The notes under the pieces were generated by a model. That model was not told the DNA's origin, ran no database searches, and saw only the letters and a list, made by a program, of their open reading frames with translations. Below, one piece after another: positions 893 to 32,756 of a DNA stretch of 32,756 nt; the first letter of the stretch is position 1, and each line of letters starts with the position of its first letter. This DNA comes from Alphaproteobacteria bacterium (GTDB lineage Bacteria; Pseudomonadota; Alphaproteobacteria; SHNJ01). The position numbers and the translations under genes were made by a program. The stretch is from contig SHNJ01000016.1 in NCBI GenBank assembly GCA_004295055.1, positions 1 to 32,756 of the forward strand, given 5' to 3'.

Positions 893-952
893 TTTTCCAA
901 AAACTCAGGCAAGAAATTCCGTAACGTCAAAATTGCCTAGTTCCTTGGAAAA
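893..952. promoter_or_regulatory. Nested imperfect dyad, candidate activator site upstream of the fliK promoter
   Basis: TTTTCCAA (893-900) is repeated inverted as TTGGAAAA (945-952). Inside it AGGCAA (907-912) is inverted as TTGCCT (933-938), giving a two-tier dyad of about 60 bp. No T-run follows on either strand, so a terminator is unlikely. It lies 42-100 bp upstream of a sigma-54 promoter, where an enhancer-binding protein such as FlbD would bind. The site assignment is inference. Confidence 0.4.
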
Positions 953-993
953 ACAAAATGATGATTTTGCAAATAATTAGATCGCTCGACCGA

Positions 994-1010
994 CTGGCCC
1001 AAGACTTGCA
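994..1010 (+). promoter_or_regulatory. Sigma-54 (-24/-12) promoter of the fliK-flgD-flgE unit
   Basis: CTGGCCCAAGACTTGCA matches the sigma-54 consensus YTGGCACGRNNNTTGCW. The GG and GC cores have correct spacing, and the departures are C for A at position 6 and A for G at position 8. It ends 43 bp before the fliK ATG. The gene for a sigma-54 activator of FlbD type lies in the same cluster (8762-10168), which fits late flagellar expression. Confidence 0.75.
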
Positions 1011-1053
1011 TATTCGAATCTGATTTGAACTAACTTTTTAAAAGAAAATAACA

Positions 1054-2343: not shown

Positions 2344-2353
2344 GGAGAATAAC

Positions 2354-3025: not shown

Positions 3026-3041
3026 TCTTATAACCAAATAA

Positions 3042-3060
3042 GACGCGCACGAAGCGCGTC
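3042..3060. other. Perfect hairpin in the flgD-flgE gap
   Basis: GACGCGC and GCGCGTC form a perfect 7-bp stem around an ACGAA loop. No T-run follows, so it is not an intrinsic terminator. In an RNA leader it could attenuate or stabilise message between flgD and the abundantly needed flgE. The role is unknown. Confidence 0.35.
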
Positions 3061-3100
3061 GGATTAACCGTCAGGCAGATATAACACAGGAGAGTTTACT

Positions 3101-4474
3101 ATGAGTGTGTTTAGCGCCCTTGTCACCGGTGTGTCTGGATTAAATGCCCAGTCTCAAGCCTTGGCAACTATTTCCGATAACATCGCTAACGTGAATACGG
3201 TTGGTTATAAACGCGTTATTACGCGCTTTTCAACCTTGGTTACGCAATCCAACGCACGCGTCCACTCTCCTGGCGGTGTCAGCTCGAACCCGATGCACTT
3301 GACCACCGCGCAAGGCTTGTTGCAAGCAACCGGCGGCGAAACCGATGTCGGCATCGAAGGCTCCGGTTTCTTCGTCGTCAATAAAAGCAGCGTCCCCGCC
3401 GCCGGCGATGAATATTTATTCACCCGCGCCGGACAATTCGTTCCCGACAGCGAAGGTTATTTGAAAAATACCGCGGGCATGTATTTGCAAGGCTGGATAT
3501 TGGATGCAAGCGGTAACTTGCCGACAAACACCAGTAACGTGACCACATTATCCACCATTAATTTATCCAACATTACCGGCGCTGCCCGCGCTACGACCGC
3601 GGTTTCCATGGGCTTAAACTTGCCTGCGAACGCAACCACCGGCCAACAGCAAACATCGCAAGTTACGATGTACGATTCACTTGGCGTTGCGCGCAGCGTA
3701 ACCTTGAACTGGACCAAGACTTCAACGAATAACCAGTGGGAATTGACCTTTACCACCCCTGGCGGTTCGATGGCCGGTTTATATTCCGAAGATGCCACCA
3801 CATTTAACGCTAACAACCTTGATGGTTCTGGCGTGTCGCCTGCCAACCGTGTCATGGTAACCTTTGACAGCAGCGGCAATCTGAACAACATGACTTACGG
3901 CGGTACATCCGTAATTGCCAACGAAGGAACCAGCTGGGAAGGTAAAGTCAGATTCCGCTTTAACTATAGTGCCAGCGGCGCTTCCGCCACCCAAAACATC
4001 GACTTTAATTTTGGCGCCGCAGTCGCAGAACCTGTAACTCCGGCATTGACATCTCAGGTAACCCAAGTCGGTACCGAATTCGATCCGCGCTTTGCCAACC
4101 AAGACGGCGTTGCCCCGGGCTCCTATAGCGGTATCAACATTACCGCCGACGGAACTTTGTTCGCCCTGTTCAGCAACGGTGAAACCAGACCGGTTTATCG
4201 CATCGCTTTGGCAAATTTCCCAGCCGCCACCGCTCTGGAAGCAAAAAACGGCAACGCCTATGCTCAAACCGCTAACTCTGGCGCTTATATTCTCAGCGTT
4301 CCGGCATCGGGCGGTTATGGACGAATTGCAGCGAACAGCTTGGAAGCTTCTAAGGTGGATATCGCCGAAGAATTCTCCAATATGATTCTGACGCAGCGTG
4401 CCTATTCGGCGAACACCAAAGTTATCAGTACCGCCGATAACATGCTCGAAGAGCTGATCCGCACAATTTCGTAA
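3101..4474 (+). CDS. flgE: Flagellar hook protein FlgE
   Basis: FlgE is the structural subunit of the flexible hook. The 457-residue product begins with the rod/hook-family D0 motif (MSVFSALVTGVSGLNAQSQ, then LATISDNIANVNTVGYKR). It continues with IEGSGFFVV typical of FlgE/FlgG-like proteins. The C-terminal D0 helix reads LEASKVDIAEEFSNMILTQR and ends TKVISTADNMLEELIRTI. The central part (about 140-330) is Thr/Ser/Asn-rich surface-domain sequence. The SD is clear (CACAGGAGAGTTTACT before ATG). The gene closes the fliK-flgD-flgE unit and is followed by an intrinsic terminator. Confidence 0.95.
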   Translation: MSVFSALVTGVSGLNAQSQALATISDNIANVNTVGYKRVITRFSTLVTQSNARVHSPGGVSSNPMHLTTAQGLLQATGGETDVGIEGSGFFVVNKSSVPAAGDEYLFTRAGQFVPDSEGYLKNTAGMYLQGWILDASGNLPTNTSNVTTLSTINLSNITGAARATTAVSMGLNLPANATTGQQQTSQVTMYDSLGVARSVTLNWTKTSTNNQWELTFTTPGGSMAGLYSEDATTFNANNLDGSGVSPANRVMVTFDSSGNLNNMTYGGTSVIANEGTSWEGKVRFRFNYSASGASATQNIDFNFGAAVAEPVTPALTSQVTQVGTEFDPRFANQDGVAPGSYSGINITADGTLFALFSNGETRPVYRIALANFPAATALEAKNGNAYAQTANSGAYILSVPASGGYGRIAANSLEASKVDIAEEFSNMILTQRAYSANTKVISTADNMLEELIRTIS

Positions 4475-4515
4475 GTTTTTAAAGCCAACCTCTAAGTTTC
4501 TACTCCCCCCTAGAT

Positions 4516-4546
4516 CCCGACCCTTAAAAAAGGTCGGGGTTTTTTT
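4516..4546 (+). terminator. Rho-independent terminator after flgE
   Basis: CCCGACC (4516-4522) pairs with GGTCGGG (4532-4538), followed at once by a G and a run of seven T (4540-4546). The stem can extend through CTT/AAG with one bulged C. It lies 41 bp after the flgE stop, ending the hook transcript. Confidence 0.88.
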
Positions 4547-4855
4547 AATTTTGTATAGAAATTGCATATATATAAGTATGTATGTGCAAGTAAGAGATGA
4601 AGCTGTGCGTTCTATGTCAGACTGTATTCCAACCTATTGATATAGAAGCGTAATATTGAGTTGCACATTTAACACGTTTTCATCGCTATTGGCTGTATTG
4701 GGAAAAAAACTCCAGCCAAAGTAGGCAAATTTTGCCCGATGTTAACTTTTTGTTCATTATACTGGAGCTAAGAATAAGAAAAGAGGCCGGGATTTTAACC
4801 AAAGTAAATTGGTTAAGATTACAGGTCTTAAGAATTTGAATTGGGAGTATTGTCC
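4547..4855. other. Upstream region of the fliF operon with several dyads
   Basis: I see no gene in this stretch between flgE and fliF. It carries three symmetric elements. TTGGCTG/CAGCCAA (4689-4719) has a 17-nt loop. GGCAAA-T-TTTGCC (4724-4736) is a compact dyad. A longer palindrome lies at 4795-4816 (separate entry). TTAA-N7-TTCA (4742-4756) is a 7-of-8 match to the CtrA box. No sigma-54 consensus is visible. In Caulobacter the corresponding fliF promoter is under CtrA and FlbD control; applying that here is inference. Confidence 0.45.
4795..4816. promoter_or_regulatory. Perfect palindrome TTAACCAA-N6-TTGGTTAA before fliF
   Basis: Two perfect 8-bp arms are separated by AGTAAA and end 39 bp before the fliF GTG. 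Each arm contains a TTAACC-type CtrA half-site, but the half-sites point inward with 14 bp between TTAA cores, unlike the direct TTAA-N7-TTAA arrangement. It could be an operator for CtrA or another dimeric regulator, or an RNA hairpin in the leader. Confidence 0.4.
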
Positions 4856-6532
4856 GTGAGCTTCGCTGGTACCCTTCGCAACCTAGGCCCTTCCCGTTTA
4901 GCCCCGATCGGCCTTGTCATGATCGGCCTTGTGGCGTTTTTCGTCTACATGGCTTCGCGCTTTACGACACCCAACTTGCAACTTCTTTATAATGATTTGG
5001 ATCCCAAAGATTCAGGTTCGATTGTTGCCAAGTTAGAAGGCATGAATATCCCGGTGCAAATTAAAGGCGATGGGACTCAAATATACGTTCCAGGCGATCA
5101 AGTCGCAAAGCTCCGTATGCTGTTGGCGCAAGAAGGCCTGCCCCGTGGCGGCAGCATGGGATATGAAATTTTTGATAAGACCGACGGCCTGTCCACCAGC
5201 AGTTTTGTACAAAATATAAATTTAGTGCGCGCGCTGGAAGGCGAATTGGCCCGTACAATTTCCTCTTTAGGCCCAGTAAAATCCGCGCGGGTGCATTTGG
5301 TGCTGCCACAACGCGAAGTATTCAGCCGCCAAAAACAAGAGCCAAGCGCTTCGATCGTTTTGCAAATGCGTTCCGGACGTCTGGAAAGTTCTCAGGTCGC
5401 AGCCATACAGCATTTAGTCGCCGCAGCAGTTCCCGGATTGAAACCAACTCAAATTTCAATTATCGACGATAAGGGCACTTTGCTTGCCAGAGGCGGTGGA
5501 GATGAATCTTACAGCTCCAGCCTAAGCAGCGCCGAAGAAGCCCGCGTATCGTTGGAACGCCGTATGTCCGGCGAAATTGAATCGCTGCTTGAAAAATCGA
5601 TTGGCCCCGGCAAGGTTCGCGCCGAAGTAACGGCGGAAATGGATTTTGACCGCATTACCATGAATTCGGAAATTTACGATCCGGAAAGCCGCGTGGTGCG
5701 TTCGCAACAAACCGAAGAAGAATCCGGCCAAAGTCAGGAAGGCAGCGCTGGCGGAACCGTCAGCGTCGCCAATAATATTCCAAACGGCGCCCCTGCCCCA
5801 GGCACCGAAGCCGCCGGTTCGAACAGCAATAAAAACAACCGCACATCGGAAACCATCAATTATGAAATTTCTAAAACCGTCAAACAACAGGTCAAAGAAA
5901 GCGGCCAAGTAAAAAAATTGTCGGTCGCGGTTTTGGTTGACGGTACTTATACCAAAAACGACAAAGGCGAAGAAACTTATGCCCCGCGCAGCGAAGACAA
6001 TTTAAAGCAATTGGAATCGTTGGTCAAAACCGCGATCGGATTTAATGAAGAACGTGGCGACGTGGTGCAAGTGGTCAATATGCAATTTGTATCCCCCGTT
6101 ACATCCGGCGAAGGCGTTTCTTCGGACGAAGCCGCAGGCGGCATGATGGGATTCAGCAACGCAGAAATCATGAAACTGGTTGAAACCGTGGTTATGGGAC
6201 TTGTCGGCATTCTGGCTTTGCTGCTTGTTGTTCGCCCGATGATGATGCGCGCGCTGGAACCTGCCGGTGCTGGCGGCGCCAGGATCGCCCGTGGCGGCGG
6301 TCTCCCGCAATTGACCGGCCCGATGGGTGGCGGCGATGGCGGCGGCGATATGCCGGAAATGGAAATCAAAAATTCCGAACTTGAGGAAATGATCAATATG
6401 AAGCAGATCGAAGGCCGTATTAAGGCTTCTTCCTTGAAACGGATCAGCGAAATCGTTGAAAAGCATCCAGAAGAAACTTTATCCATTATCCGTACCTGGT
6501 TATACCAAGGCAAACGGGATCATAACGAATAA
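4856..6532 (+). CDS. fliF: Flagellar MS-ring protein FliF
   Basis: FliF forms the MS ring in the inner membrane, housing the export gate and anchoring the FliG switch. I chose GTG at 4856 because GGGAG sits 8 bp upstream; an in-frame TTG at 4841 overlaps that ribosome site. The product is then 558 residues, the usual FliF size. A first membrane segment lies at about 17-33 ([17 protein letters not shown]). Ring-building periplasmic domains contain [18 protein letters not shown] and [14 protein letters not shown] Gly/Ser/Asn-rich loop sits around 300-325, a second membrane segment at about 440-462 and a charged FliG-binding C-terminus. It is the first gene of fliF-fliG-fliH-fliN-flbD. Confidence 0.95.
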
Positions 6533-6543
6533 GGGCGCGAGCA

Positions 6544-7548
6544 ATGTCTGAACAAAGAACCTTAAACGGTCCGGAAAAAGCAGCCTTGCTGATGCTAACC
6601 ATCGGCGAGGAAAACGCGGGCAAGCTGTTTTCGATGATGCATGACGACGAAATTCGGGAATTGTCGCAACACATGTCTTCCCTTGGGTCGGTTGGATCAA
6701 ACGTAACCGAAAAACTGGTTATGGAATTTGCCGAAAACTTTTCAACTGCTGGCGCCGTTGGTTCGTACGAAACAGCCGAACGTTTGCTTGGCAAGGTTCT
6801 GGATAAAAGCCGCTTGGACAACATTATGGACGAGATCCGGGGTCCCGCCGGCCGTACATTGTGGGACAAGCTGGATAACGTTAATGAAAACATTCTTGCC
6901 AACTATTTGAAAAACGAATATCCGCAAACAGTGGCGGTTGTTTTATCCAAGGTATCCCCTCCTCACGCCGCCAAGGTGTTGGGCGTTTTGCCGGAAAACT
7001 TTTCGATGGAAGTCATCATGCGCATGTTGCGCATGGAAACCGTGCAGAAAGACGTTTTATCGGACGTAGAAAAAACTCTGCGTTCCGAATTTATGAGCAA
7101 CTTGGCCCGTTCATCGCGCCGCGATCCGCACGAAGTTATGGCCGAGATTTTCAACAGCTTCGACCGCAATACCGAAGCGCGGTTCATGGGCTCGCTCGAA
7201 GAACGGCATCGCGACGCCGCCGATAAAATTAAGGCATTGATGTTCACCTTCGACGATCTGGCCCGCTTGGATGGCGGATCGATCCAAACCTTGCTGAAAG
7301 TGGTGGAAAAAGACAAATTGCCACGCGCCTTAAAAGGCGCCTCTCAAACGATTCGCGATCTGTTTTTCAGCAATATGTCGGAACGCGCCGCAAAAATCAT
7401 GAAAGAAGATATGGATGGCCTTGGCCCCGTGCGTTTGCGCGAGGTTGACGAGGCGCAAATTTACATCGTTACTGTCGCCAAAGATTTGGCCGCCAAAGGC
7501 GAAATCGTCATCGCAGCCGAAGGCGGAGACGATCAACTGATTTACTAG
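6544..7548 (+). CDS. fliG: Flagellar motor switch protein FliG
   Basis: FliG is the rotor protein that joins the MS ring to the C ring and receives torque from the stator. The 334-residue product has all three regions. The N-terminal domain opens with [17 protein letters not shown]. The middle domain has the EHPQ-type motif, which here reads EYPQ (125-128). The MFTF hinge is at 233-236. The C-terminal torque domain contains [17 protein letters not shown] and [12 protein letters not shown]. The His-to-Tyr change in the EHPQ motif, which contacts FliM in studied species, is a departure worth noting. It follows fliF by 11 bp. Confidence 0.96.
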
Positions 7549-7556
7549 GAACCTTA

Positions 7557-8390
7557 ATGTCCGCAACCGCAGAACAAAAAACCGCGCATAAATTCATCTT
7601 CGAAACCAGTTTCGACGATCCCGCCAGCGCGGCCCAGGACGACAAACCGAACGAAGCACTGGAAGCGCTGAAAAAACAAGCTTTTGCGGCCGGCCAACAA
7701 GCGGCCCTGCAAAGCATTGAACGCCAAACCGGCGAGATTTGCGCCCATGTTTTAAAGCATATGCAGCATATCACATCGCAATATGCCTCAACTCAAGAAG
7801 CATTGATGTACAAATCGCTGTCGGTTGTCCTGTATTCCCTGCAAAAATTAATACCCGACTTGCTTAGCATGCAGGCCGAGGAACAAATTGAATCCACCGT
7901 AAAACAATGTCTGCGTTTCGCGCTGGATATGCCAAAATTGACCATCAAAGTATCGGATCAAATTTACGGTTCGGTGCAACCCCGTCTGCAAAGCATCTTT
8001 GCTGAATCCGGCTTTCAAGGCAAAGCCTCGATTACCGCCGATCCAACCTTGAAAATGGGCGATTGCCGCGTGGAATGGGGCAATGGCGGCATGGAAACCT
8101 TGCCGTCGCACATTTGGCAGCACATTCATAATATGTTGTATGAATGCTTGCCGAAAAACGTGGCTGAATCGATTCCAACCGATCTACAAGATCCACTGCC
8201 GCCAGAACCGGAACCAGAACCTGTTATCGAGGCTGCTGCCGAACCTATGGAGCAACCGCCGGAACAGACCGAAACATCCGAACAAAATATCGAAGCGGCG
8301 CCAGAATCCACGGAGCAACCGGCGGAAAATGAATCTTCGCCAGAACAACCAGTAACTGAACAAACTTCAATTGATGATGGGAGCAAATAA
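7557..8390 (+). CDS. fliH: Flagellar assembly protein FliH (FlbE-type)
   Basis: FliH dimerises and holds the export ATPase FliI, bringing substrate to the export gate. The identification rests on position (between fliG and fliN, as flbE in Caulobacter), the helical centre (about 40-110, EALKKQAFAAGQQAALQSIE) and a FliH-like C-terminal domain (about 150-190, ITADPTLKMGDCRVEWGNGG). Odd here is an extra tail after about residue 205. It is roughly 70 residues of Glu/Pro/Gln-rich low complexity with repeated EPxEQP-like units. The ATG follows TAGGA, 8 bp after fliG. The stop overlaps the fliN start by one base (TAATG), implying translational coupling. Confidence 0.82.
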   Translation: MSATAEQKTAHKFIFETSFDDPASAAQDDKPNEALEALKKQAFAAGQQAALQSIERQTGEICAHVLKHMQHITSQYASTQEALMYKSLSVVLYSLQKLIPDLLSMQAEEQIESTVKQCLRFALDMPKLTIKVSDQIYGSVQPRLQSIFAESGFQGKASITADPTLKMGDCRVEWGNGGMETLPSHIWQHIHNMLYECLPKNVAESIPTDLQDPLPPEPEPEPVIEAAAEPMEQPPEQTETSEQNIEAAPESTEQPAENESSPEQPVTEQTSIDDGSK

Positions 8391-8734
8391 TGGCTGATAA
8401 TAACGATTTAAATTTAACGGAATTGCAAGAAGGCGGCGCAGCCCCTGCTGGCGGCGCCGAAGACGGATCTCGTGTGGCGCAATCCGCCCGCGATCTCGAG
8501 GCAATCGGATTAATTCCAGTCAAAGTTTCGGCCGTGTTGGGCCAGGCCACCATGCAGGTCAACCAATTGCTGAAACTTGGCCGTGGCGCGGTTGTGGAAT
8601 TGGATCGCCGCGTCGGCGAAGCCATCGATATTTATGTCAATAACCGCCTGGTCGCGCGCGGCGAGGTTGTGATCGTCGATGACCGCCTGGGCGTAACCAT
8701 GACCGAGATTATCAAATCGGAGCAATCCAGCTAA
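8390..8734 (+). CDS. fliN: Flagellar motor switch protein FliN
   Basis: FliN forms the base of the C ring and docks FliH/FliI. The 114-residue product has a disordered Ala/Gly-rich start (residues about 14-25). The SpoA domain follows: IPVKVSAVLGQATMQVNQLL, then LGRGAVVELDRRVGEAIDIY, VNNRLVARGEVVIVDDRLGV and TMTEII. These are textbook FliN features. The ATG shares its A with the fliH stop, with GGGAG upstream. No fliM is present in the window. Confidence 0.96.
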   Translation: MADNNDLNLTELQEGGAAPAGGAEDGSRVAQSARDLEAIGLIPVKVSAVLGQATMQVNQLLKLGRGAVVELDRRVGEAIDIYVNNRLVARGEVVIVDDRLGVTMTEIIKSEQSS

Positions 8735-8761
8735 TTTCGCGAGTAAGAGAGAGTAAGACCA

Positions 8762-10168
8762 ATGAGATTGTTAATTATCGGCAGCCTGAACGGGCACACA
8801 TCAACAGCGGGAAAGATCGCGATCGAACGCGGCGCCAAAGTGTCCCATGTTGAAGACATCGATGCTGGCCTAACCGCCTTGCGCAATGGCCAAGGCGCGG
8901 ATTTGATTATGATCGATGTCAAATTGAATGTTGGCCGCCTGATCAACGCGCTTAAAACCGAACGGATTCACCTGCCCGTGGTCGCCTGCGGCATTGGTAA
9001 CGACACCAATGGCGCGGTTCAGGCCATTAAAGCAGGCGCGAAAGAATACGTGCCGCTGCCCGCCGACCCGAAATTGATTGCCGCGGTGTTGGAAGCGGTT
9101 ACCGAAGAAACCACCAATATGATTTACCGCGATCCGGTTATGGTGCGCACCCTCGCCCTGGTCGATCAGATCGCAAGTTCCGATGCCAGCGTGCTGATAA
9201 CCGGCGAATCGGGTACCGGCAAAGAAGTCATGGCCCGTTATATCCATGGCAAAAGCAAACGCATCGGCCAAAAATTTGTTTCCATCAATTGCGCCGCGAT
9301 TCCGGAACATTTGCTGGAATCGGAATTGTTCGGCCATGAAAAAGGCGCCTTTACCGGCGCGGTGGCCCGGCGGATCGGCAAATTCGAAGAAGCTGACGGC
9401 GGCACCTTATTGCTGGATGAAATCAGCGAAATGCATCCAAATCTGCAAGCCAAGTTGCTGCGCGCGATCCAAGAACGCATGATCGACCGGGTTGGCGGCA
9501 CCACCCCGGTAAAGGTCAATATTCGCGTAATCGCGACATCCAACCGCAACATGGAACAAGAAGTGCGCGAAGGTAAATTCCGCGAGGATTTGTATTTCCG
9601 ATTAAACGTCGTCAATGTCCGTTTGCCATCGTTGCGCGAACGGCCAACCGATATTGAATTATTGGCCAATCATTTTATCAAAAAATATGCAGCGGCCAAC
9701 GAAATGCCGGTCAAACCCTTGTCCGACGATGCGCGGCAAAAATTGATTTCACATGTCTGGCGCGGCAATGTGCGCGAGCTGGAAAACACTATGCACCGCG
9801 CCGTATTGCTGGCCGGCGGCCCAACCATCAACTCGGAAGCGATCGTGTTGAATATGAGCGCGGCCATGGCTGGCGGCATGCCGGAAAACATGATCGGCGG
9901 CTCAATCCCGGCGAAATTGTCTCCCGCCTCGCCCACGTCGCACAATAGCGGCGGCGAAGCTCCTCCTATGGTGGGCCGCACCGTCGCGGATGTGGAACGG
10001 GATTTGATTATTCAAACCTTGAACCACTGCCTGGGCAATCGCACCCATGCCGCGAATATTTTGGGAATTTCGATCCGCACTTTGCGGAATAAACTAAAAC
10101 AATATAATGATGAAGGGATTGCCGTTCCGCCATCCGGCGAGAATGAGCGGGCCAGCGTTAACTCCTAA
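8762..10168 (+). CDS. flbD: Sigma-54-dependent flagellar transcription activator, FlbD type
   Basis: This enhancer-binding protein opens sigma-54 promoters of late flagellar genes. The 468 residues contain a degenerate receiver-like domain (1-110), a complete AAA+ core and a Fis-type helix-turn-helix (about 425-455, NRTHAANILGISIRTLRNKL). The AAA+ core has Walker A GESGTGKE (148-155), the sigma-54 contact loop GAFTGA (195-200) and Walker B GGTLLLDEI (213-221). The receiver keeps an Asp at 52 but lacks the paired acidic residues of the phosphorylation pocket at its start (MRLLIIGS). Control by ordinary phosphorylation is therefore doubtful, as is known for Caulobacter FlbD. The position after fliF-fliG-flbE-fliN matches that of Caulobacter flbD. 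Confidence 0.93.
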   Translation: MRLLIIGSLNGHTSTAGKIAIERGAKVSHVEDIDAGLTALRNGQGADLIMIDVKLNVGRLINALKTERIHLPVVACGIGNDTNGAVQAIKAGAKEYVPLPADPKLIAAVLEAVTEETTNMIYRDPVMVRTLALVDQIASSDASVLITGESGTGKEVMARYIHGKSKRIGQKFVSINCAAIPEHLLESELFGHEKGAFTGAVARRIGKFEEADGGTLLLDEISEMHPNLQAKLLRAIQERMIDRVGGTTPVKVNIRVIATSNRNMEQEVREGKFREDLYFRLNVVNVRLPSLRERPTDIELLANHFIKKYAAANEMPVKPLSDDARQKLISHVWRGNVRELENTMHRAVLLAGGPTINSEAIVLNMSAAMAGGMPENMIGGSIPAKLSPASPTSHNSGGEAPPMVGRTVADVERDLIIQTLNHCLGNRTHAANILGISIRTLRNKLKQYNDEGIAVPPSGENERASVNS

Positions 10169-10188
10169 TAGGTTAAGTCTATAGTCCT

Positions 10189-12288
10189 ATGGCGGATGCC
10201 ACCACTACGCAGAACCCAGCTTCTGCCGATTTTATGAATAATTTCTTCAAGCGCGGCGATATTGCGCTGGCGCTGGGCATTGTCTTTATTCTTAGCGTTT
10301 TAATTCTGCCGATGCCGACCTGGCTTTTGGACATCATGTTGGCTTTTTCCTTTAGCTTCTCGGTTTTGATTTTGATGACGGTTTTATTCATCAACCGTCC
10401 GCTGGACTTCAGCTCATTCCCTACCGTTATCTTGGTTTCCACGCTTTTACGCCTGTCGCTGAACCTGGCCTCGACCCGTTTGATTCTGGCGCATGGCCAT
10501 GAAAGCACATCCGCCGCCGGACACGTTATCGAAGCATTCGGCAATTTCATTATGAGCGGGAATTTTGTCATTGGATTGATCGTGTTCTCGATCCTGGTGC
10601 TTGTAAACTTTGTCGTTATTACCAAAGGTTCCGGGCGTATTGCCGAGGTTTCCGCGCGTTTTACCTTGGATGCGATGCCCGGCAAACAAATGGCGATCGA
10701 CGCGGATTTATCTTCCGGTTTGATCACCGAGGATGAAGCGCGGAAAAAACGCAAAGAAATCGAACAGGAAAGCGGATTTTACGGCGCCATGGACGGTGCG
10801 GCAAAATTCGTGCGTGGCGATGCGATTGCCGGCCTTATCATTACCGTCATTAATATTGTCGGTGGCATTATCATCGGCACCGCGCAAATGGGCCTGGATC
10901 TTAACCAAGCGACGCACAGTTACACTTTGCTGACGGTCGGCGATGGTCTGGTATCGCAAATTCCGGCGCTGATCGTTTCAACCGCATCCGGTTTGCTTGT
11001 CACCAAGGGCGGCGGCACCACCGGCTCTGCTGAAAAAGCCTTATTTTCGCAATTGGGCGGCTATCCCGCTGCGCTGGGATTGAGTTCGTTTTTAATGCTG
11101 ACCATGGCTGCCCTGCCCGGCGTACCGTTCCTGCCATTTCTAATCTTAGGCGGAGGAATGGGCGGCTTGGCCTATATAGTCAATGAGAAAATTACCGAAC
11201 AAAAAGTTACCGAAGAACGCAAGGCGGTAGAGGCTACAAAAACTCCTGTTTCCGAACAACCTATCGCTGCATCCTTGCAAATAGATTTAATCCGACTGGA
11301 ATTGGGTTATGGACTGCTTAGCTTGATCAACAAGGATCGCGGCGTGGTGTTGACCGATCAGATCAAGGCTTTGCGCCGCCAACTGGCCAGCGAAATGGGG
11401 TTTGTATTGCCGTCCGTGCGCATTCAGGACAATTTGCAATTGGCCGCCAACAATTATGTGATTCGCATCAAAGAAATTGAGGCCGGACGCGGTGAAGTTC
11501 GCCCCAACATGTTTATGGTTATGGACCCGCGCGGCGAACCGATCGGCATGCCGGGCGAGGCCACCACCGAACCAACGTTTGGTTTGCCAGCCATGTGGAT
11601 CAATGAAAATCTGAAAGAAGAAGCGCAATTCAAAAATTATACCGTGGTTGATCCCGCCACCGTCATCACCACGCATGTCACGGAACTGGTCAAAGATTAC
11701 ATGCCGGAATTGCTGTCCTTTACCGAAACCCAGAAATTACTGGACGAATTGGACAAAGATCAGCAAAAACTGGTTGCGGAAATCACCCCGGCGAAAATTT
11801 CCGTCGGCGGCATACAGCGCGTCTTACAAATATTGCTGGGCGAACGGATCAGCATCCGCGATCTGCCGACTATTTTGGAAGGCATTGCGGAGGCAACCGG
11901 CACATCGCGCAACGTGGCCACCATCGCCGAACATGTGCGCCATCGCCTTTCCCGTCAAATCAGCGAAGCCAACGTCAACATGGCCGGAATTATCCCGATC
12001 ATGGCCCTTTCGCCGGAGTGGGAACAAGCATTCAGCGAGTCTATTATCGGCCAGGGCGACGAACGCCAATTGGCAATGCCGCCAAGCAAGTTGCAACAAT
12101 TTATCGGCGATGTCCGGTCGAACTTTGACCGGATGGCGATGATGGGCGAAATGCCGGTATTGCTGACCAGCCCGGCGATCCGCCCATTCGTGCGTTCCAT
12201 CATTGAACGGTTCCGTCCGCAAACGGTAGTATTGTCACAATTGGAAATTCATCCGAAAGCGAAAATTAAAACCTTGGGTCAAATCTGA
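10189..12288 (+). CDS. flhA: Flagellar export gate protein FlhA
   Basis: FlhA is the large export-gate subunit; its cytosolic ring receives chaperone-substrate complexes. The 699-residue product has a hydrophobic N-terminal half (about 20-330). The FHIPEP-family core is GRIAEVSARFTLDAMPGKQM, then AIDADLSSGLI, followed by GAMDGAAKFVRGDAIAGLII. A soluble C-terminal domain (about 350-699) includes GMPGEATTEPTFGLPAMWI and RHRLSRQI. The start is not backed by a strong ribosome site (AGGTT is 15-20 bp upstream), so the exact N-terminus is less certain. The stop overlaps the flhF ATG by one base (TGATG). Confidence 0.96.
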   Translation: MADATTTQNPASADFMNNFFKRGDIALALGIVFILSVLILPMPTWLLDIMLAFSFSFSVLILMTVLFINRPLDFSSFPTVILVSTLLRLSLNLASTRLILAHGHESTSAAGHVIEAFGNFIMSGNFVIGLIVFSILVLVNFVVITKGSGRIAEVSARFTLDAMPGKQMAIDADLSSGLITEDEARKKRKEIEQESGFYGAMDGAAKFVRGDAIAGLIITVINIVGGIIIGTAQMGLDLNQATHSYTLLTVGDGLVSQIPALIVSTASGLLVTKGGGTTGSAEKALFSQLGGYPAALGLSSFLMLTMAALPGVPFLPFLILGGGMGGLAYIVNEKITEQKVTEERKAVEATKTPVSEQPIAASLQIDLIRLELGYGLLSLINKDRGVVLTDQIKALRRQLASEMGFVLPSVRIQDNLQLAANNYVIRIKEIEAGRGEVRPNMFMVMDPRGEPIGMPGEATTEPTFGLPAMWINENLKEEAQFKNYTVVDPATVITTHVTELVKDYMPELLSFTETQKLLDELDKDQQKLVAEITPAKISVGGIQRVLQILLGERISIRDLPTILEGIAEATGTSRNVATIAEHVRHRLSRQISEANVNMAGIIPIMALSPEWEQAFSESIIGQGDERQLAMPPSKLQQFIGDVRSNFDRMAMMGEMPVLLTSPAIRPFVRSIIERFRPQTVVLSQLEIHPKAKIKTLGQI

Positions 12289-13205
12289 TGCGTATGCGGT
12301 CTTTCATAGCAGCCTCTGTCCCCGAAGCGATGGATATCGTCCGCCGCGAAATGGGCGATGACGCAGTTATCATTTCGCAAGGCCCGTCGCCCAACGGCAA
12401 GGGCGTCCAAATCACCGCTGCATCCGATAATGCTCCGCAGAATGAGCCCGTTTATCAAAACCCCGTCGATGTCATTGGCGAGGCATTGGACAAACACAGC
12501 ACGCCGCGCAAATTGCAGGATAAAATTCTTACCCTTGTCGAGCGTTTGGAACTTGATGATCCGGTGATGGCGCTTGCCGGTGCATTCGACAGCCTATTCA
12601 AATTCAATCCGATTGCAAATAATCCCAAAGATAAGCCATTATTGCTGATGGGAGTGCCGGGCGTCGGCAAAACCGTTACTGTGGCAAAACTGGCTTCGCG
12701 TGCAGTTATGGAAGGCGCAAAGACAATTTGCATTACCACCGATGCGGAACGCGCTGGCGCGGTCGAGCAGCTCGAAGCATTCACGCGGATTTTGAAAATT
12801 GATTTGCTGCAGGTTAAAAAACCGGCCGAAATAAAAGATGCTTTGGCGGCCTGCCCCACAGATATTTCTATTTTTATCGACACCGCTGGCGTCAATGTTC
12901 TTCGCCCGGAAGATTTAGACAATATAAAACAAATTGTCAGCCTGTCCGGGGCCGAACCGGTATTTGTTTATGCCGCCGGCGGGGATGCCGCCGATGCAGC
13001 CGAAATAGGCACCATTTTCAAGGACATAGGAGCCAAACGGATTTTAATAACAAGAATGGATATGACTCGCCGTTATGGTAGCATTTTGGCCGCAGCCGAT
13101 GCCGGTCAATTCCAGTTTTGTAATGTTAGCATTACCCCCCATATTGCAAATGGTTTAAGCTCTATTAACCCTTTATCGCTGGCAAGGATTTTTTTACCAA
13201 TTTAG
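12288..13205 (+). CDS. flhF: Signal-recognition-type GTPase FlhF (short form)
   Basis: FlhF marks the site of flagellar assembly, usually a pole, and is countered by FlhG. The 305-residue product has the family start (MRMRSFIAASVPEAMDIVRR, then EMGDDAVII). The SRP-type GTPase motifs are G1 GVPGVGKT (122-129), TDAERAGAVEQL, DTAG (198-201) and a G4-like TRMD where TKxD is usual. It is clearly shorter than many FlhF proteins because the linker between the N-terminal basic part and the NG domain is brief. It overlaps flhA by one base and is followed by flhG. Confidence 0.92.
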   Translation: MRMRSFIAASVPEAMDIVRREMGDDAVIISQGPSPNGKGVQITAASDNAPQNEPVYQNPVDVIGEALDKHSTPRKLQDKILTLVERLELDDPVMALAGAFDSLFKFNPIANNPKDKPLLLMGVPGVGKTVTVAKLASRAVMEGAKTICITTDAERAGAVEQLEAFTRILKIDLLQVKKPAEIKDALAACPTDISIFIDTAGVNVLRPEDLDNIKQIVSLSGAEPVFVYAAGGDAADAAEIGTIFKDIGAKRILITRMDMTRRYGSILAAADAGQFQFCNVSITPHIANGLSSINPLSLARIFLPI

Positions 13206-13241
13206 CAGTATAATAGTTCATCCCCCTGTAAGGAATTATTA

Positions 13242-14051
13242 ATGAATACAACAACTTCAACCCCTACCCCGAATGCGGAAAATCAAGCGCAACCAGGGCT
13301 GAAAATACCAAAAATTATCGCCGTTGCATCTGGCAAGGGCGGGGTTGGTAAAACATGGTTTTCAATCACCCTTAGCCACGCGCTGTCGACCTTGCGCAAA
13401 AAAGTTTTGCTGTTCGATGCCGATTTAGGATTGGCAAACGCGGATATTCAATTGGGTTTAATGCCGGAAAAAGATATCAGCCACGTTATTTCGAATAATT
13501 TGGCTTTGGAAAAAGTGGTTACGCGCTATGAAATAGGAAAATTCGACGTGATTGCCGGCCGGTCCGGTTCCGGTCAACTGGCCGCCCTGCCCGCCAGCCG
13601 GTTAAGCCAGTTGCGCACGGAATTGACGGAACTTGCCAACAAAAATTATGATCATGTGATTATCGATCTGGGCGCCGGCATCGAACGCTCGGTTCGTGCC
13701 GTATCGATGGATTGCGATTGCTATTTGGTGGTTTGCACCGACGAACCAACATCGCTGACCGATGCTTATACATTCATCAAAGTGACATTGGCCGAAAAAC
13801 CGGATACCGATTTCCGCATTGTTTGCAACCAGGCGCAAACCAAACTGGACGGCGAGAAAACTTACAATACCCTGTTAAAAGCCAGCAAAGGTTTCTTGAA
13901 ATACGCGCCGCAGCTTGCCGGGATTGTCCGCCGCGACCGCCGTGTCAGCGAAAGCATCCGTCACCAGACGCCGATTCTGATCCGCTATCCGAACAGCGAA
14001 GCCGCGGTCGACGTTATGGCGATTGCCCGTCAACTGACCGGCGACAAATAA
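13242..14051 (+). CDS. flhG: MinD/ParA-type ATPase FlhG (FleN/YlxH)
   Basis: FlhG limits flagellar number and regulates FlhF GTPase activity in polar flagellates. The 269-residue product has a 20-residue Thr/Pro/Gln-rich start and the deviant Walker A GKGGVGKT (31-38). The MinD switch region DADLGLANADIQLGL follows. A third family motif is VIIDLGAGIERSVRA, where an Asp-Leu-Gly-Ala replaces the more common DTGAG. The ATG follows TAAGGAATTATTA, a good ribosome site, 36 bp after flhF. Confidence 0.92.
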   Translation: MNTTTSTPTPNAENQAQPGLKIPKIIAVASGKGGVGKTWFSITLSHALSTLRKKVLLFDADLGLANADIQLGLMPEKDISHVISNNLALEKVVTRYEIGKFDVIAGRSGSGQLAALPASRLSQLRTELTELANKNYDHVIIDLGAGIERSVRAVSMDCDCYLVVCTDEPTSLTDAYTFIKVTLAEKPDTDFRIVCNQAQTKLDGEKTYNTLLKASKGFLKYAPQLAGIVRRDRRVSESIRHQTPILIRYPNSEAAVDVMAIARQLTGDK

Positions 14052-14058
14052 GGGTGCG

Positions 14059-15717
14059 GTGGTGGCGGACATCCGCGTTCCCCCCGAAGTTCAACCAATA
14101 AGATCCGTTATCAATCCCATTGCCGCGCATATCGTCAATGCGACCGAGGCCGTGCAAAAAATGGCGATTGGTCAAATCATTTCCGGACAGGTGATTGGCA
14201 AAAACTCCGCCGGCCAGATCGAAGTTAAAACCGATTTAGGCGTTTTAAAAATTCAAACGACGCAAGCCCTGATTCCAGGCAAAGCGATTCAAATCGCCAT
14301 TCAGCAAAATGGGCCGCAACCGCAAGTCCAGATTCAAACGGTCGCGCAACAAACCGCCGTCCTGACAGAAGGCGCCAAGCACGCCGATGTGTCGGACCAA
14401 ATTCGCAGTTTGATTGCCCAATTGGCGCCGCCGGATATAGATGTGGCGGAACACCCGTCTATGATTATGCCTGGCCTGATTGCCAAGGCGATTTTCATGC
14501 GGCTTAAATCCGATTTCTGGACTCCGGGAAGCGATACATCGGACGGCATAGTGATTGGCGGCAAAGTCATCCAGGCCGCCAATGGAAAAATTCAGGTGCA
14601 AACCCAATTTGGCGCCTTGGAAGTAGAATCCCAGCAACCTTATAAACCGGGCGATTCCGTACAACTGCAATTGCCTCGCGAAGGCAATAAACAGCCGATT
14701 ATTGTACCGCAAGGTCAATCACCATCCCCGCCTGCGGCCACGACACGCGCTTATGCCACGCCCAGCAATCCAGCGATGGTCTATGCCCAAGCGGCGGATA
14801 AAATCCCGCGCCCGCAAAATGTAAGCATTACATTTGTCGGCCCCGAACACATGGAAGACGGCATCATCCCCATCCCCGCCAAAGTCATTCATGTCAGCAA
14901 TAATTACATCGCAACCTTACGCATTCCGACCGGCATCCTTACATTGCAATCGCCATTCCAATTGAATGTGAATGACGATGTTTTAATTTCCCTGAACTTA
15001 AACGACCCGTTGGTTGCCGCCGAGGCCGCAATTAAGGCGTCAACCACCCCATCCGCCTTGCCGTTAGGCGGCAAGACTTTACCCAATCTTGATGAATTGA
15101 TCGATTTATGGCGTACCCAGACCAACACCCCATTATCGCAATTCATAAAAACCGTACTGCCAAACACCGACGGGCGATTTGTCAATCAAGCGATCATGTA
15201 TTTTGTGGCCATGACCGCCGGCGATGCGAAATTCTGGCTGGGCCCAAAATTGCTGAAAGAATTGGAAAAAGATAAGGCCGATATCACATCGAAATTATCC
15301 GACGAATTCCGTTCCATTCAGAAATCGGCCGATGAGACCAGCGCCGCGCCATGGCGTCATTTGCCGTTGCCGGTGTTCGACGGACAGCAATTGCATTATG
15401 TACAATGTTATTTCCGCAACCACCATGACGAAGGCGAAGAAAGCCAAGGCCAGCGTTTTGTAATCGAAGCCAATTTGTCTCGCCTTGGCGCTTTGCAGTT
15501 GGACGGTTTTATCCGCGAACAAACTTTTAATTTAATGGTACGCACGGTGGACGCCTGGCCCAACAGCGTACAACAGAATGTGCGGCAGATTTTCCAAGAT
15601 TACATGGATATGTCCGGATGGAATGGGCAAATCAGCTTTCAAACCACGCCGGTTTTTCCAATGAAACCGGGCGCCGAAAACCTGGCAGCGACTGGGCATT
15701 TGGGGACAAAAATTTAA
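14059..15717 (+). CDS. Large flagellar-locus protein with three internal beta repeats; FliK-like C-terminus
   Basis: I cannot name this 552-residue protein with confidence. Three related segments of about 50 residues each follow the pattern V-I-x3-x-G-x-I-x-V-x-T-x-x-G-x-L, then a proline/glycine turn and a last strand. They lie at about 38-82 (GQVIGKNSAGQIEVKT), 160-212 (GKVIQAANGKIQVQTQFGAL) and 264-316 (AKVIHVSNNYIATLRIPTGI). The C-terminal part (about 430-530, RFVIEANLSRLGALQLDGFI) resembles the core of the FliK hook domain. A second hook-length-type protein is therefore likely. GTG at 14059 or 14062 may start it; AAGGG at 14050 slightly favours 14062. Its last four bases overlap the oppositely transcribed fliJ. 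Confidence 0.65.
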   Translation: MVADIRVPPEVQPIRSVINPIAAHIVNATEAVQKMAIGQIISGQVIGKNSAGQIEVKTDLGVLKIQTTQALIPGKAIQIAIQQNGPQPQVQIQTVAQQTAVLTEGAKHADVSDQIRSLIAQLAPPDIDVAEHPSMIMPGLIAKAIFMRLKSDFWTPGSDTSDGIVIGGKVIQAANGKIQVQTQFGALEVESQQPYKPGDSVQLQLPREGNKQPIIVPQGQSPSPPAATTRAYATPSNPAMVYAQAADKIPRPQNVSITFVGPEHMEDGIIPIPAKVIHVSNNYIATLRIPTGILTLQSPFQLNVNDDVLISLNLNDPLVAAEAAIKASTTPSALPLGGKTLPNLDELIDLWRTQTNTPLSQFIKTVLPNTDGRFVNQAIMYFVAMTAGDAKFWLGPKLLKELEKDKADITSKLSDEFRSIQKSADETSAAPWRHLPLPVFDGQQLHYVQCYFRNHHDEGEESQGQRFVIEANLSRLGALQLDGFIREQTFNLMVRTVDAWPNSVQQNVRQIFQDYMDMSGWNGQISFQTTPVFPMKPGAENLAATGHLGTKI

Positions 15718-16133
15718 CTTTTCTTCTTCCGCTCGAACGCGGCGATAGTGGTATCGTCGGTTTCCGCTTGTTCCTTGCGCGTGGCTTCCAGTTTTTCGCG
15801 CGCGGCCTGGCGTTCGGCCGTGACCTCGTATTTTTTCAATTCCTGATAGGCCATTTGCACGACCAGCTCGGCTTTTTCTACCTCGATCTTTAAATGTTCG
15901 AGTTCCTGTTCCAATTTCTGGCGCCGCGCAATGAATTTTTTGGAATAGCCGTGATAGGTCATGCCCAGTTCGATGGCTTGAGCGGCGGTTTTTTGTTCTT
16001 CCGCCAGCTCTTTATCTAAGTTCAGACGCGCATCCATGGTACGCTGCATCTGTTCTTCAATAGCCACCAGCGCGCGACGCTTCTCATCAAGCTCGAACTT
16101 ATACATTCGGATCAAGGTCGCGATTTTTTTCAT
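15714..16133 (-). CDS. fliJ: Flagellar export stalk protein FliJ
   Basis: FliJ is the coiled-coil central stalk of the FliI ATPase and couples it to FlhA. The 139-residue product is almost wholly charged heptad sequence. It begins MKKIATLIRMYKFELDEKRR, and its middle reads AIELGMTYHGYSKKFIARRQ, then KLEQELEHLKIEVEKAELVV. Size, composition and its place downstream of fliI support the assignment. It is separated from fliI by 171 bp that hold a structured repeat, unusual for this tight pair. It ends in a 4-bp convergent overlap with the preceding + strand gene. Confidence 0.86.
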   Translation of the reverse strand: MKKIATLIRMYKFELDEKRRALVAIEEQMQRTMDARLNLDKELAEEQKTAAQAIELGMTYHGYSKKFIARRQKLEQELEHLKIEVEKAELVVQMAYQELKKYEVTAERQAAREKLEATRKEQAETDDTTIAAFERKKKS

Positions 16134-16146
16134 TAATATTACTTAT

Positions 16147-16292
16147 ACCCTCCCCTTGAGGGAGGGTCAAAGCCGCGAAGCGGGTTTGGGGTGGGGATAT
16201 TATTGTATAAATGAAAAAAGGTGCAAATTTATAGACTAAATCCCCACCCCAAAATCACTATGTGATTTTGACCCTCTCTCAAGGGGAGGATA
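16147..16292. repeat. Long structured inverted repeat, copy 1 (inside the fliI-fliJ unit)
   Basis: Arms of 53 bp at 16147-16199 and 16240-16292 are inverted copies with about 43 matching positions. Each arm holds a hairpin of CCCTCCCCTTGAGGGAGGG type, then a second small hairpin, then TTGGGGTGGGGAT. The small hairpins differ in sequence (AAAGCCGC/GCGGGTTT on the left, AAAATCAC/GTGATTTT on the right) but both remain base-paired. The loop between arms is 40 bp and A/T-rich. The same outer design recurs at 19382-19519. No coding frame is seen. It looks like a dispersed palindromic element that inserted between fliI and fliJ. Confidence 0.8.
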
Positions 16293-16304
16293 GCATTATT
16301 AATT

Positions 16305-17624
16305 TTACTTCAAAATGTCCGCCAATTGCCGGTATCCGTCGGCAAACCGGCTGGATTCATGCTCGCTTTGTTTTAAAAAACTTTCCAGCGCCGGATAATA
16401 CCGGATCGCTTCGTCAATTTTTGGGTCGCTTCCGGCGCGGTAAGCTCCTAGACGAATCATTTCGCCCATATCTTCGTATGTGGCCAGCAATTCGCGCGCG
16501 CGATTAATCAGCGCATTTTCCTGATCCGTATTGCAATCCGGCAAGGTCCGCGACACGCTTTTTAAAACGTTGATTGCGGGATACCGGCCGCGATCGGCGA
16601 TGGCGCGGTCCATTACAATATGCCCATCGACAATGCCGCGCACCGCATCCGAGATAGGCTCGTTCGTGTCGTCGCCTTCGACCAGCACGGTAAATAATCC
16701 CGGAATCGATCCCTGCCCTTTGGCGCCTGGACCGGCGCGTTCCAACAATCTTGGCAATTCCGCAAACACGGTTGGCGTATATCCTTTGCTGGTTGGCGGT
16801 TCGCCAGCCGACAATCCGATTTCCCGCTGCGCCATCGCGAAACGAGTGATGGAGTCCATCAGACACAAAACATCTTTGCCCTGATCGCGGAAATATTCGG
16901 ATACGCTTAAGGTTAAATAGGCTGCCTGGCGGCGCATCAATGGCGATTCATCCGATGTAGCGACGATGACAACGCTGCGTTTCAAGCCTTCTTCGCCTAA
17001 ATCGTCTTGTAAAAATTCTTGCACTTCGCGGCCACGCTCGCCCACCAAACCAATCACCGATACTTGCGCCGATGTATATTTGGTCATCATCGAAATCACG
17101 GTCGATTTGCCGACGCCGGAACCCGAAAAAATTCCCATACGCTGTCCACGGCAACAGGTGAGAAACGTATTGATCGCACGAACACCCAGATCCATCTTCT
17201 CGCCGACACGCTGGCGCGAATGCGCGGGCGGCGGCGATGCGCGCAATGGGTAAGGCAACGGGCCTTGCGGCAACGGACCTTTATCGTCGATCGGCTGGCC
17301 AAAGGCATTGATTACGCGGCCAAGCCACGCTTCGGATGGGTGAACGACGGGATCGGCGGATTCAGCCATCGCCTTGGTGCCTAATCCAACGCCTTCTAAA
17401 TTATGGAACGCCATCGCCATTGCGCGGTCGTTTTTAAATCCGACTATTTCGCAAGCGATCATTTTGTTCTGGCGGTTTTGTAAATAGATCCGATCCCCGA
17501 CCGATAAATGGGTCTCAATGCCCCCTATTTCGACCAGCATGCCCAATATGCTCGTGACCTTGCCAAAGTACCTTGTGGGGCTTAAGCGGTTAATTTCATC
17601 GTTAATGGCGCCGATCAATTCCAA
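16305..17624 (-). CDS. fliI: Flagellum-specific ATPase FliI
   Basis: FliI is the hexameric ATPase that energises substrate unfolding and entry into the flagellar export gate. The 439-residue product has a beta-barrel N-terminus (about 15-95), Walker A GSGVGKST (168-175), GERGREVQEF (about 194-203) and the Walker B region VLCLMDSITRFAMAQREIGL. Next come GEPPTSKGYTPTVFAELPRL and DGHIVMDRAIADRGRYPAIN. Length and order match the FliI/YscN family. The first possible start is TTG at 17624, preceded by GGTGA four bases upstream; an in-frame stop lies 33 bp further upstream, so no ATG is available. It is divergent from ctrA across 213 bp. Confidence 0.95.
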   Translation of the reverse strand: MELIGAINDEINRLSPTRYFGKVTSILGMLVEIGGIETHLSVGDRIYLQNRQNKMIACEIVGFKNDRAMAMAFHNLEGVGLGTKAMAESADPVVHPSEAWLGRVINAFGQPIDDKGPLPQGPLPYPLRASPPPAHSRQRVGEKMDLGVRAINTFLTCCRGQRMGIFSGSGVGKSTVISMMTKYTSAQVSVIGLVGERGREVQEFLQDDLGEEGLKRSVVIVATSDESPLMRRQAAYLTLSVSEYFRDQGKDVLCLMDSITRFAMAQREIGLSAGEPPTSKGYTPTVFAELPRLLERAGPGAKGQGSIPGLFTVLVEGDDTNEPISDAVRGIVDGHIVMDRAIADRGRYPAINVLKSVSRTLPDCNTDQENALINRARELLATYEDMGEMIRLGAYRAGSDPKIDEAIRYYPALESFLKQSEHESSRFADGYRQLADILK

Positions 17625-30712: not shown

Positions 30713-30739
30713 TTAGCACTCCGCCCAAACGAGTGCTAA
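30713..30739. promoter_or_regulatory. CIRCE operator (HrcA-binding) of groESL
   Basis: TTAGCACTC-N9-GAGTGCTAA is a perfect match to the CIRCE consensus. It lies 71 bp upstream of the groES ATG and just downstream of the predicted -10. HrcA would repress groESL here and release it on heat stress. hrcA itself is not in the window. Confidence 0.97.
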
Positions 30740-30769: not shown

Positions 30770-31010
30770 TGGCTCAAACCAAAAAAATACGTAATATTGT
30801 TTCTTTTTTTCGTATCTACAAAGGATTATCCACAGATATGGCTAATTCATTGTAAAATATAGATTGTTACTGTAACAAATCTCCCTTCTTAAGCAATTTT
30901 TATCCTTTTAGCGTCATACTATACGATAGGGTCAAAGTATGAACCCATTTTTGTGCACAGACAAATTATGTTTGTGCGCGAGACACTTATAGACGCAGGA
31001 GGTGTCCCGA
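30770..31010. other. Divergent intergenic region, groES / FG-GAP flagellin
   Basis: There is no gene in this stretch. It holds a perfect DnaA-box nonamer TTATCCACA (30826-30834), a perfect dyad TTGTTAC-T-GTAACAA (30864-30878) and a near CtrA box (separate entry). No sigma-54 -24/-12 pair is visible, unlike before fliK. Confidence 0.5.
30889..30925 (+). promoter_or_regulatory. Candidate CtrA-dependent promoter of the FG-GAP flagellin
   Basis: TTAA-N7-TTAT (30889-30903) matches 7 of 8 positions of the CtrA box. It sits 16 bp before a -10-like TATACG (30920-30925), the geometry of a CtrA-activated promoter with the box over -35. It is 86 bp before the flagellin GTG. The evidence is weak and untested. 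Confidence 0.35.
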
Positions 31011-32756
31011 GTGTCGATGACGGTCAACAGTAACCAAGCCGCAAGTATTGCCTTGCGGTCGCTGCAGCGGTCGCAGAACGCGATGGAGCGCGCGCTGACA
31101 CGACTGTCGACCGGACAAAATGCACCGAGCGCGCGTTACGATGTTGCCGGTGTCGCCGTATCTTCCCGCATTCGCGGCGAAATAGTTGCCCTGCAAAAAT
31201 ATCAGCAGAACGCGCAACAAGCAGTCAGCATGATGCAAATCGCCGAAGGCACGTATCAGCGCGGTCAGGAAATGTTGACGCGCATGCGCTCATTGTCGGC
31301 ACAGGCGCAAAGCAGCAACTTGTCGCAAGTGGAGCGCGGCATGCTCGATACCGAGTATCAACAAATCAAGGAGGAAATCACGCGTCTAGCCGTTAGCAGC
31401 AGTTTTGGAGGAACGCTGCTGATGGATGTCGGCAATATGAGTTTCGATTTTGCCGGCTTGAGAAGTTACACCGTCAGCAACGGCGCCACAGCCAACGGCA
31501 GCAGCCAACTTGTCGACTTCAACGGTGACGGCATACTCGATGTGCTTTTATTCAACAGTCTTGCCGGTAACGTCACCGTCGCCTATGGCCACGGAGACGG
31601 CAGCTTTGATAACGAAGTCGTATTAACCGCCACTGGCCTATCCAGCCCAACTTCCACCGTTGGCGATTTCGATGGCGACGGAAGAATGGACTTCAGCACA
31701 TACAACGGCGCCACAATTACCATTTGGCGCAATAACGGCGATGGCACCGTTTCCAGCATGAACAGTTTTGCGCTGGGCGCCGTGCCAGCCATGGTCGCGG
31801 GCGACATCAACGGCGATGGCATGGCCGACTTTGTCACCCGCAGCGGTGCCAACATCACCGTCTATACCGCCACCGGAGGAGGCAATTTCTCGACCACATC
31901 CTATACTGCCGGAATCACCGCAAGCAATATCGCGCTGGCTGATATGAACAACGACGGCACTTTGGATCTGATTTTGAATAGCGCAACGCAAGTTCAAATC
32001 ATGAGCAGCAATAGCACCGGCGGATATAGCAACGGCTCGCTGTTCACAACTGGTGCCAACACATTTAACGCACGTGCTGCAATCGCAGATTTTGACGGGG
32101 ATGGATTCCTTGATGTCATTTATGGAAAAACCGGCGGCAACATCGAAATCATTCGTAACCTGGGCAACGGCAATGTGGGCACTGGCGTCACCATCAACGT
32201 TGGGTCCGCAACCGCAATCGGCAACGTTTGCGTCAGCGATATGAATGGCGACGGCATTCTGGATCTATTCACGTCGTCTACCGTCAACTCGTCGGTATAT
32301 TGGATGCAAGGAACCGGTTCGTTCACTTTCGGCGCGGCACAAACGACGTCGATTGCCGGCACATTCAACGTCAATATTATTTACGGCGATCTGAATAACG
32401 ATGGACGTGTCGACATTTTAAACCGCAAACAGCTGAGCATGCAAAGCATTCTAAACAACAGCACCAGCGGACTTGAAAGCACTATCCGTGTCAGCAGCGG
32501 CATTGCAACATCGGATAATATCGGCTTCCGCATCGGCGCCATGCGGTTAAATATGCTGGCGCAAGGTTTGGAATTCAGCATGATCAATTCCATCGGCGGG
32601 GCAAAACGCGCCGAGCAAATGATCAAAGCCGCGCTGAATCAGTTGATTTTATTCCGTACCAGTGTCGGCTCCACAATCAACCGATTGGAAAAAGTTCAGG
32701 ACAATATTTCATCCATGGTCGAAAATCAGGAAGGAGCGCGCAGTTCAATCGCGGAT
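31011..32756 (+). CDS. Flagellin with a central seven-repeat FG-GAP beta-propeller (3' truncated by window edge)
   Basis: The frame stays open to the window end, 582 codons. GTG at 31011 is the best start, with AGGAGG eight bases upstream; ATG at 31017 is the alternative. Residues 1-150 are flagellin D0/D1: ALTRLSTGQNAPSARYDVAG, ALQKYQQNAQQAVSMMQIAE and SSSFGGTLLMDVG. From about 475 a flagellin C-terminal D1 begins (IGFRIGAMRLNMLAQGLEFS, then LFRTSVGSTINRLEKVQDNI). Between them the variable region is replaced by seven DxNxDGxxD calcium motifs of FG-GAP/VCBS type starting at D169, D219, D265, D311, D360, D410 and D460. This spacing predicts a seven-bladed integrin-like propeller exposed on the filament. 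Codon use resembles its neighbours. Adhesion is a guess. Confidence 0.93.
   Translation, partial: MSMTVNSNQAASIALRSLQRSQNAMERALTRLSTGQNAPSARYDVAGVAVSSRIRGEIVALQKYQQNAQQAVSMMQIAEGTYQRGQEMLTRMRSLSAQAQSSNLSQVERGMLDTEYQQIKEEITRLAVSSSFGGTLLMDVGNMSFDFAGLRSYTVSNGATANGSSQLVDFNGDGILDVLLFNSLAGNVTVAYGHGDGSFDNEVVLTATGLSSPTSTVGDFDGDGRMDFSTYNGATITIWRNNGDGTVSSMNSFALGAVPAMVAGDINGDGMADFVTRSGANITVYTATGGGNFSTTSYTAGITASNIALADMNNDGTLDLILNSATQVQIMSSNSTGGYSNGSLFTTGANTFNARAAIADFDGDGFLDVIYGKTGGNIEIIRNLGNGNVGTGVTINVGSATAIGNVCVSDMNGDGILDLFTSSTVNSSVYWMQGTGSFTFGAAQTTSIAGTFNVNIIYGDLNNDGRVDILNRKQLSMQSILNNSTSGLESTIRVSSGIATSDNIGFRIGAMRLNMLAQGLEFSMINSIGGAKRAEQMIKAALNQLILFRTSVGSTINRLEKVQDNISSMVENQEGARSSIAD

Follow-up and report, generated by a model that had tools for sequence, protein, structure and literature searches.

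Flagellins that carry non-flagellar domains are the closest described counterparts of the protein analysed here. In a 2017 survey of 26,587 flagellins, 61 domain types were recorded in the variable region, and the accessible part of that survey gives a top ten that includes metallopeptidase (86), vWFA (21) and sialidase (10) domains and from which FG-GAP repeats are missing (Eckhard et al. 2017, PMC5595980). As far as that part of the survey describes them, flagellinolysins resemble the present case in having a foreign folded domain in the variable region, in its display on the filament and in their patchy spread, whereas their insert is a metallopeptidase and the one found here is a calcium-motif propeller that lacks an enzyme signature and has been tandemly duplicated (PMC5595980). 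The sialidase and vWFA flagellins likewise hold a non-flagellar domain in the same slot, but the sialidase insert is of the Asp-box type, which is a different propeller superfamily, and these proteins are listed rather than characterised in the accessible part of the survey (PMC5595980). Giant and outer-domain flagellins also possess large outer domains that alter the filament surface, although a propeller domain goes unmentioned in the available portions of the two reports (PMC6248924, PMC8931119).

Among propellers, the lectins PVL and AAL2 and the integrin alpha-V headpiece (PMC8023676, PMC3123361, PMC4483166) share with the insert seven blades and a Dx[DN]xDG motif in loop AB, with significant matches to it in profile and fold. 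The calcium sites of PVL occupy loop AB (PMC8023676), as does the calcium site of the so-called "calcium blades" (PMC3123361). Three such motifs are listed for PVL and for integrin alpha-V, whereas the propeller flagellin keeps seven; moreover, the GlcNAc pocket of PVL and AAL2 is absent, and the propeller is here mounted on a flagellin. The preliminary description of this DNA had been aware of no propeller flagellin, and an FG-GAP propeller on a flagellin indeed appears undescribed, since the open-access literature on flagellin together with FG-GAP, VCBS, PD40 or beta-propeller domains yielded no account of this architecture, a search of partial coverage that gives weak evidence. The novelty is nevertheless lowered by the protease-, vWFA- and sialidase-bearing flagellins already catalogued for this slot in the accessible part of the 2017 survey (PMC5595980).

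The window, that is, the whole stretch of DNA analysed, is the entire contig C16 (1-32756; 32,756 nucleotides) of a 1.95 Mb genome in 37 contigs that is 99% complete. The propeller flagellin gene (31011-32756, + strand) is complete at its 5' end and cut at its 3' end by the contig, the frame staying open up to the last position, so that 581 residues are visible. Its start, GTG 31011, was picked through the match to its paralogues, the encoded MSMTVNSNQ resembling MSLTINSNQ of a sister protein, and direct reading places a ribosome-binding site, AGGAGG (30997-31002, +), 8 nt ahead of it; a pattern search found no convincing sigma-28 or sigma-54 promoter upstream of 31011.

The flagellin N-terminal D0/D1 region claimed in the preliminary description was borne out by Pfam Flagellin_N (PF00669; D0/D1 N-terminal helices; 31023-31427, +; E 4e-22), which covers the first ~140 residues of the protein. 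The claimed start of the C-terminal D1 stood in part: the beginning of the D1 C-terminal helix (32577-32756, +), with the first ~60 residues of Flagellin_C, scores 76 bits against a profile built mainly from the sister genes, but the Pfam scan gave no Flagellin_C match in this copy. The domain is reduced to these residues because the contig ends there, and the last ~40 residues, including the D0 C-terminal helix, fall past the end. Hence the 3' end that was to be obtained is seen not in the window gene itself but in its three paralogues on contig C18, in all of which Flagellin_C (PF00700) is complete (E 6e-12 to 2e-16) and which also match Flagellin_N (E 1e-21 to 7e-25); Flagellin_C is found as well in the propeller flagellins of two other genomes, G001 and G054. 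No peptidase family passed the cut-off in the Pfam and NCBIfam scans of the window copy, which gives no sign of the HExxH gluzincin domain of a flagellinolysin (NF033876).

A seven-bladed FG-GAP/VCBS (integrin-like) propeller is predicted at the D2/D3 position (31450-32480, limits approximate, +) by HMMs, profile search, structure models and Foldseek, the Pfam matches in the window copy being FG-GAP_3 (E=1e-52) and FG-GAP (E=3e-21). As had been described, the protein (P0001) has exactly seven DxNxDGxxD motifs at steps of 46-50 residues (50, 46, 46, 49, 50 and 50), whereas shuffling that segment 20,000 times gave a mean of 0.004. From blade 1 to blade 7, all on the + strand, these are DFNGDGILD (31515-31541), DFDGDGRMD (31665-31691), DINGDGMAD (31803-31829), DMNNDGTLD (31941-31967), DFDGDGFLD (32088-32114), DMNGDGILD (32238-32264) and DLNNDGRVD (32388-32414), and they start at residues 167, 217, 263, 309, 358, 408 and 458, respectively. 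Seven motifs per protein are present in all four copies of the source genome (G000) and, with slight variations, in the G001 and G054 proteins. With the motifs intact, the propeller would be expected to bind Ca2+. Apart from the propeller flagellins, the FG-GAP_3 matches found in the genome come from a single protein of 288 aa, encoded on contig C12 (L022:2105-2971, +), in which two FG-GAP repeats match weakly.

AlphaFold2 modelled the 581 visible residues with helices at both ends and four strands per blade, the pLDDT of the propeller being mostly about 80-90 and the mean of the entire model 70.5, and a propeller-only model reached a pTM of 0.77; few flagellin rows stood in the underlying alignments. 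In the models, each blade has its calcium motif in the stretch that leads from the first strand to the second (A to B). The best Foldseek matches include PVL, AAL2, BBS9, KICSTOR, CRTAC1 and integrin alpha-V, and the TM-scores normalised by the query were 0.61-0.70 over 340-420 columns for PVL, AAL2, BBS9 and aldos-2-ulose dehydratase, the end of blade 7 being of low confidence. A profile of five propellers matched PVL lectin (4e-15) and integrin alpha-V (3e-8), as well as PLL/PHL lectins. Shell propellers of Tc toxins, which also occur among the PDB matches, were set aside as mere fold resemblance. A closed seven-blade ring thus agrees with the propeller-like model and the seven-bladed fold matches, yet closure is likely rather than proven, given moderate TM-scores (~0.6-0.7) and a poorly modelled end of blade 7.

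Three further propeller flagellins, each with seven full motifs, lie in tandem on contig C18 (6.5 kb), the first of them missing ~24 N-terminal residues. Adjacent genes meet in TAATG, where the stop codon of one overlaps the start codon of the next, and therefore the tandem genes are probably translationally coupled. Since the window gene is truncated at the 3' end and the first gene of C18 at the 5' end, an order of C16 followed by C18 is plausible, and the join is inferred because the contig comparison found no overlap between the two. Among the four copies, the propellers are 31-39% identical, as against 63-81% for the N-terminal and 54-66% for the C-terminal core, a pattern that would fit a constant assembly core with diversifying surfaces; diversification via tandem duplication is the most likely course. 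In the N+C tree, the four copies cluster (support 1.0) and are joined by the G001 protein (0.998), while the G054 protein is separate. Propeller flagellins make up four of the roughly seven flagellins of the genome, and since about three ordinary flagellins coexist with them, they may be minor subunits.

The order is represented by two genomes, the source genome and G001, and the latter, from another genus of the same family, encodes one 627-aa propeller flagellin with seven blades. The class sample (385 genomes) yielded an FG-GAP flagellin in G054, of another family (L096:2001-4235, +; 745 aa, seven blades and then about 100 extra residues), and none besides this and the family members, while the phylum sample (398 genomes) yielded no propeller flagellin beyond the source genome; in both searches at most three candidates per genome were scored and the best-match loci examined, and rare cases may escape. 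Of 20 other strong FG-GAP loci examined after an FG-GAP_3 search of 190 sampled genomes, none was a flagellin, and no place in a plasmid collection covered most of the query. The proposed search for homologues with both domain types succeeded for the C18 paralogues, G001 and G054.

The blades are in register within the source genome (same-index 86.6 vs other-index 57.3 in an example pair) and between it and G001 (62.9 vs 50.9), but not towards G054 (54.4 vs 54.1), whose blades are strongly alike among themselves (83.7). The seven-blade array was therefore probably established a single time, before the family diverged, and G054 built its own; the G054 sequence suggests a recent blade amplification and an FG-GAP flagellin put together independently. 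A common origin with the G054 protein is unsupported, as the scores hardly change with blade index and the two groups are placed apart in the N+C tree. Taken together, the HMMs, the four paralogues, the relative in a second genus, the independent case in a third lineage, the structure predictions and the fold matches support the reading, already proposed in the preliminary description, of a true flagellin in which a complete predicted seven-bladed FG-GAP/VCBS propeller takes the place of the outer D2/D3 region.

Another kind of propeller was observed in the same slot. A flagellin of G001, cut at its 5' end (contig C18 of that assembly, L065:7107-8819, -), has a PD40/TolB-like middle with seven repeats counted by eye. 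PD40/TolB-like repeats belong to a propeller superfamily different from FG-GAP. In G113, from another family, a 921-aa protein (L154:598-3360, +) combines Flagellin_N (E 6e-8) with PD40 repeats (E 2e-13) and has no Pfam Flagellin_C match; it is possibly a second, divergent PD40 propeller flagellin. The sialidase domain is itself a beta-propeller fold. Unrelated beta-propeller superfamilies thus seem to have reached this position in flagellins on more than one occasion.

The surroundings of the gene are flagellar. The window opens with the C-terminal end of an ordinary flagellin (2-403, +), the 5' part of which lies at the 3' end of contig C11 (the sequence beginning NFRFKVGIAANPSDNEISLNLRG is common to the C11 end and the window start), where fliD, a fliS-like gene and the flagellin are found. 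Contig C16 thus has a flagellin at either end, probably as a result of repeats that interrupted the assembly. A flagellar cluster (429-17624; no strand assigned to the block, its gene list marked as - strand) contains fliS, fliK, flgD, flgE, fliF, fliG, a fliH-like gene and fliN, as well as a sigma-54 activator, flhA, an flhF-like SRP GTPase, a ParA-type ATPase and fliI, some of the names being derived from Pfam domains, and it indicates that the organism is equipped to build flagella. Between the ParA-type and fliI genes lies a 552-aa open frame (14059-15717) without a Pfam match. The groEL and groES genes, located between the cluster and the propeller flagellin, adjoin the latter and are divergent from it; the closest match of GroEL is 1iok, and a perfect CIRCE element, TTAGCACTC-N9-GAGTGCTAA, is present upstream of groES/groEL at 30713-30739. 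In addition, a response regulator gene adjoins a ChpT-type histidine phosphotransferase gene, a pair that we take to be CtrA/ChpT. Together with the GroEL match, this pair points to a probable member of the Alphaproteobacteria.

We consider it somewhat probable (roughly 0.55) that the propeller flagellin gives the filament a calcium-stabilised binding surface that folds after export and has been diversified by tandem duplication. The chain would leave the cell unfolded through the flagellar type III system; the propeller would be unfolded at low cytosolic Ca2+ and would fold outside once the seven loop-AB motifs bind Ca2+. The D0/D1 regions would then polymerise normally, giving one ~50 Å disc per subunit, and the discs might together form a surface for avid binding or adhesion, while the four propellers, whose faces have diverged strongly on conserved cores, could supply a mixed or switchable surface repertoire. 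In several bacteria the flagellar filament itself is reported to have an adhesin role (review PMC8306008), and we infer an adhesion role for the propeller filament, the partners of which might be prey, host or polysaccharide, as the preliminary description had suggested. More tentatively, a Ca2+ fold switch may reconcile a large rigid domain with type III export, some lineages may coat their filaments with several high-avidity propellers, and the FG-GAP, PD40/TolB-like and sialidase superfamilies may repeatedly have taken the same slot.

The axial repeat of a protofilament is ~52 Å. A disc of ~51 Å, the size of AAL2 (PMC4483166), comes close to this repeat, which would suit a structural outer domain whose adjacent discs pack, thicken or stiffen the filament and alter its hydrodynamics, for example in viscous surroundings, without any ligand. 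Available portions of earlier reports describe how the packing of outer domains adjusts motility in viscous media (PMC8931119, PMC10256154) and how giant flagellins form thick filaments (PMC6248924), and the conservation of all seven calcium motifs is as expected for a stabilising role. Pure packing, however, would predict conserved faces, and the propellers are 31-39% identical as against 54-81% for the cores, a difference that is not decisive; we regard the purely structural role as rather unlikely, though deserving some weight. The same divergence, with the four tandem copies varying mainly in their exposed part and relatives carrying an unrelated propeller in the slot, might mean that the propellers are mainly camouflage, offering variable, acidic and exchangeable surfaces by which the filament escapes flagellum-specific phages, predators or host immunity. 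The retention of seven calcium motifs and of the blade register, however, indicates that the entire fold is more strongly constrained than camouflage would require, and makes this role improbable.

The solved propellers that come closest in profile and in fold include GlcNAc lectins, which raises the idea of a PVL/AAL2-type lectin for terminal GlcNAc or chitin with pockets between blades. Yet this fold likeness is also common to integrins, BBS proteins and Tc toxin shells, and equivalents of the AAL2 residues Asn104/Trp112/His117 (PMC4483166) are not repeated across the blades, the counts being just 0-3 Trp and 0-2 His per propeller; such a lectin seems very unlikely, and GlcNAc binding was rejected as the default function on account of the missing Asn-Trp-His pocket. 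That the window copy stops at a contig edge and that flagellin models also cross-match FlgL could hint at a secreted or hook-associated product rather than a filament protein, or at a misassembled locus. Such an explanation is hardly credible given that three paralogues lie on a different contig, that the G001 and G054 cases come from independent assemblies, that the top NCBIfam matches are flagellins and not FlgL, and that contig C7 has a separate FlgL-like gene.

If the favoured reading of a calcium-stabilised binding surface is right, the swimming filament would at the same time be densely studded with integrin-like binding discs, and the propeller flagellin would offer a calcium-stabilised display scaffold. 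The set of four paralogues is a natural test of surface-domain diversification on a constant flagellin core, as well as of the passage of a large folded domain through the type III export channel.
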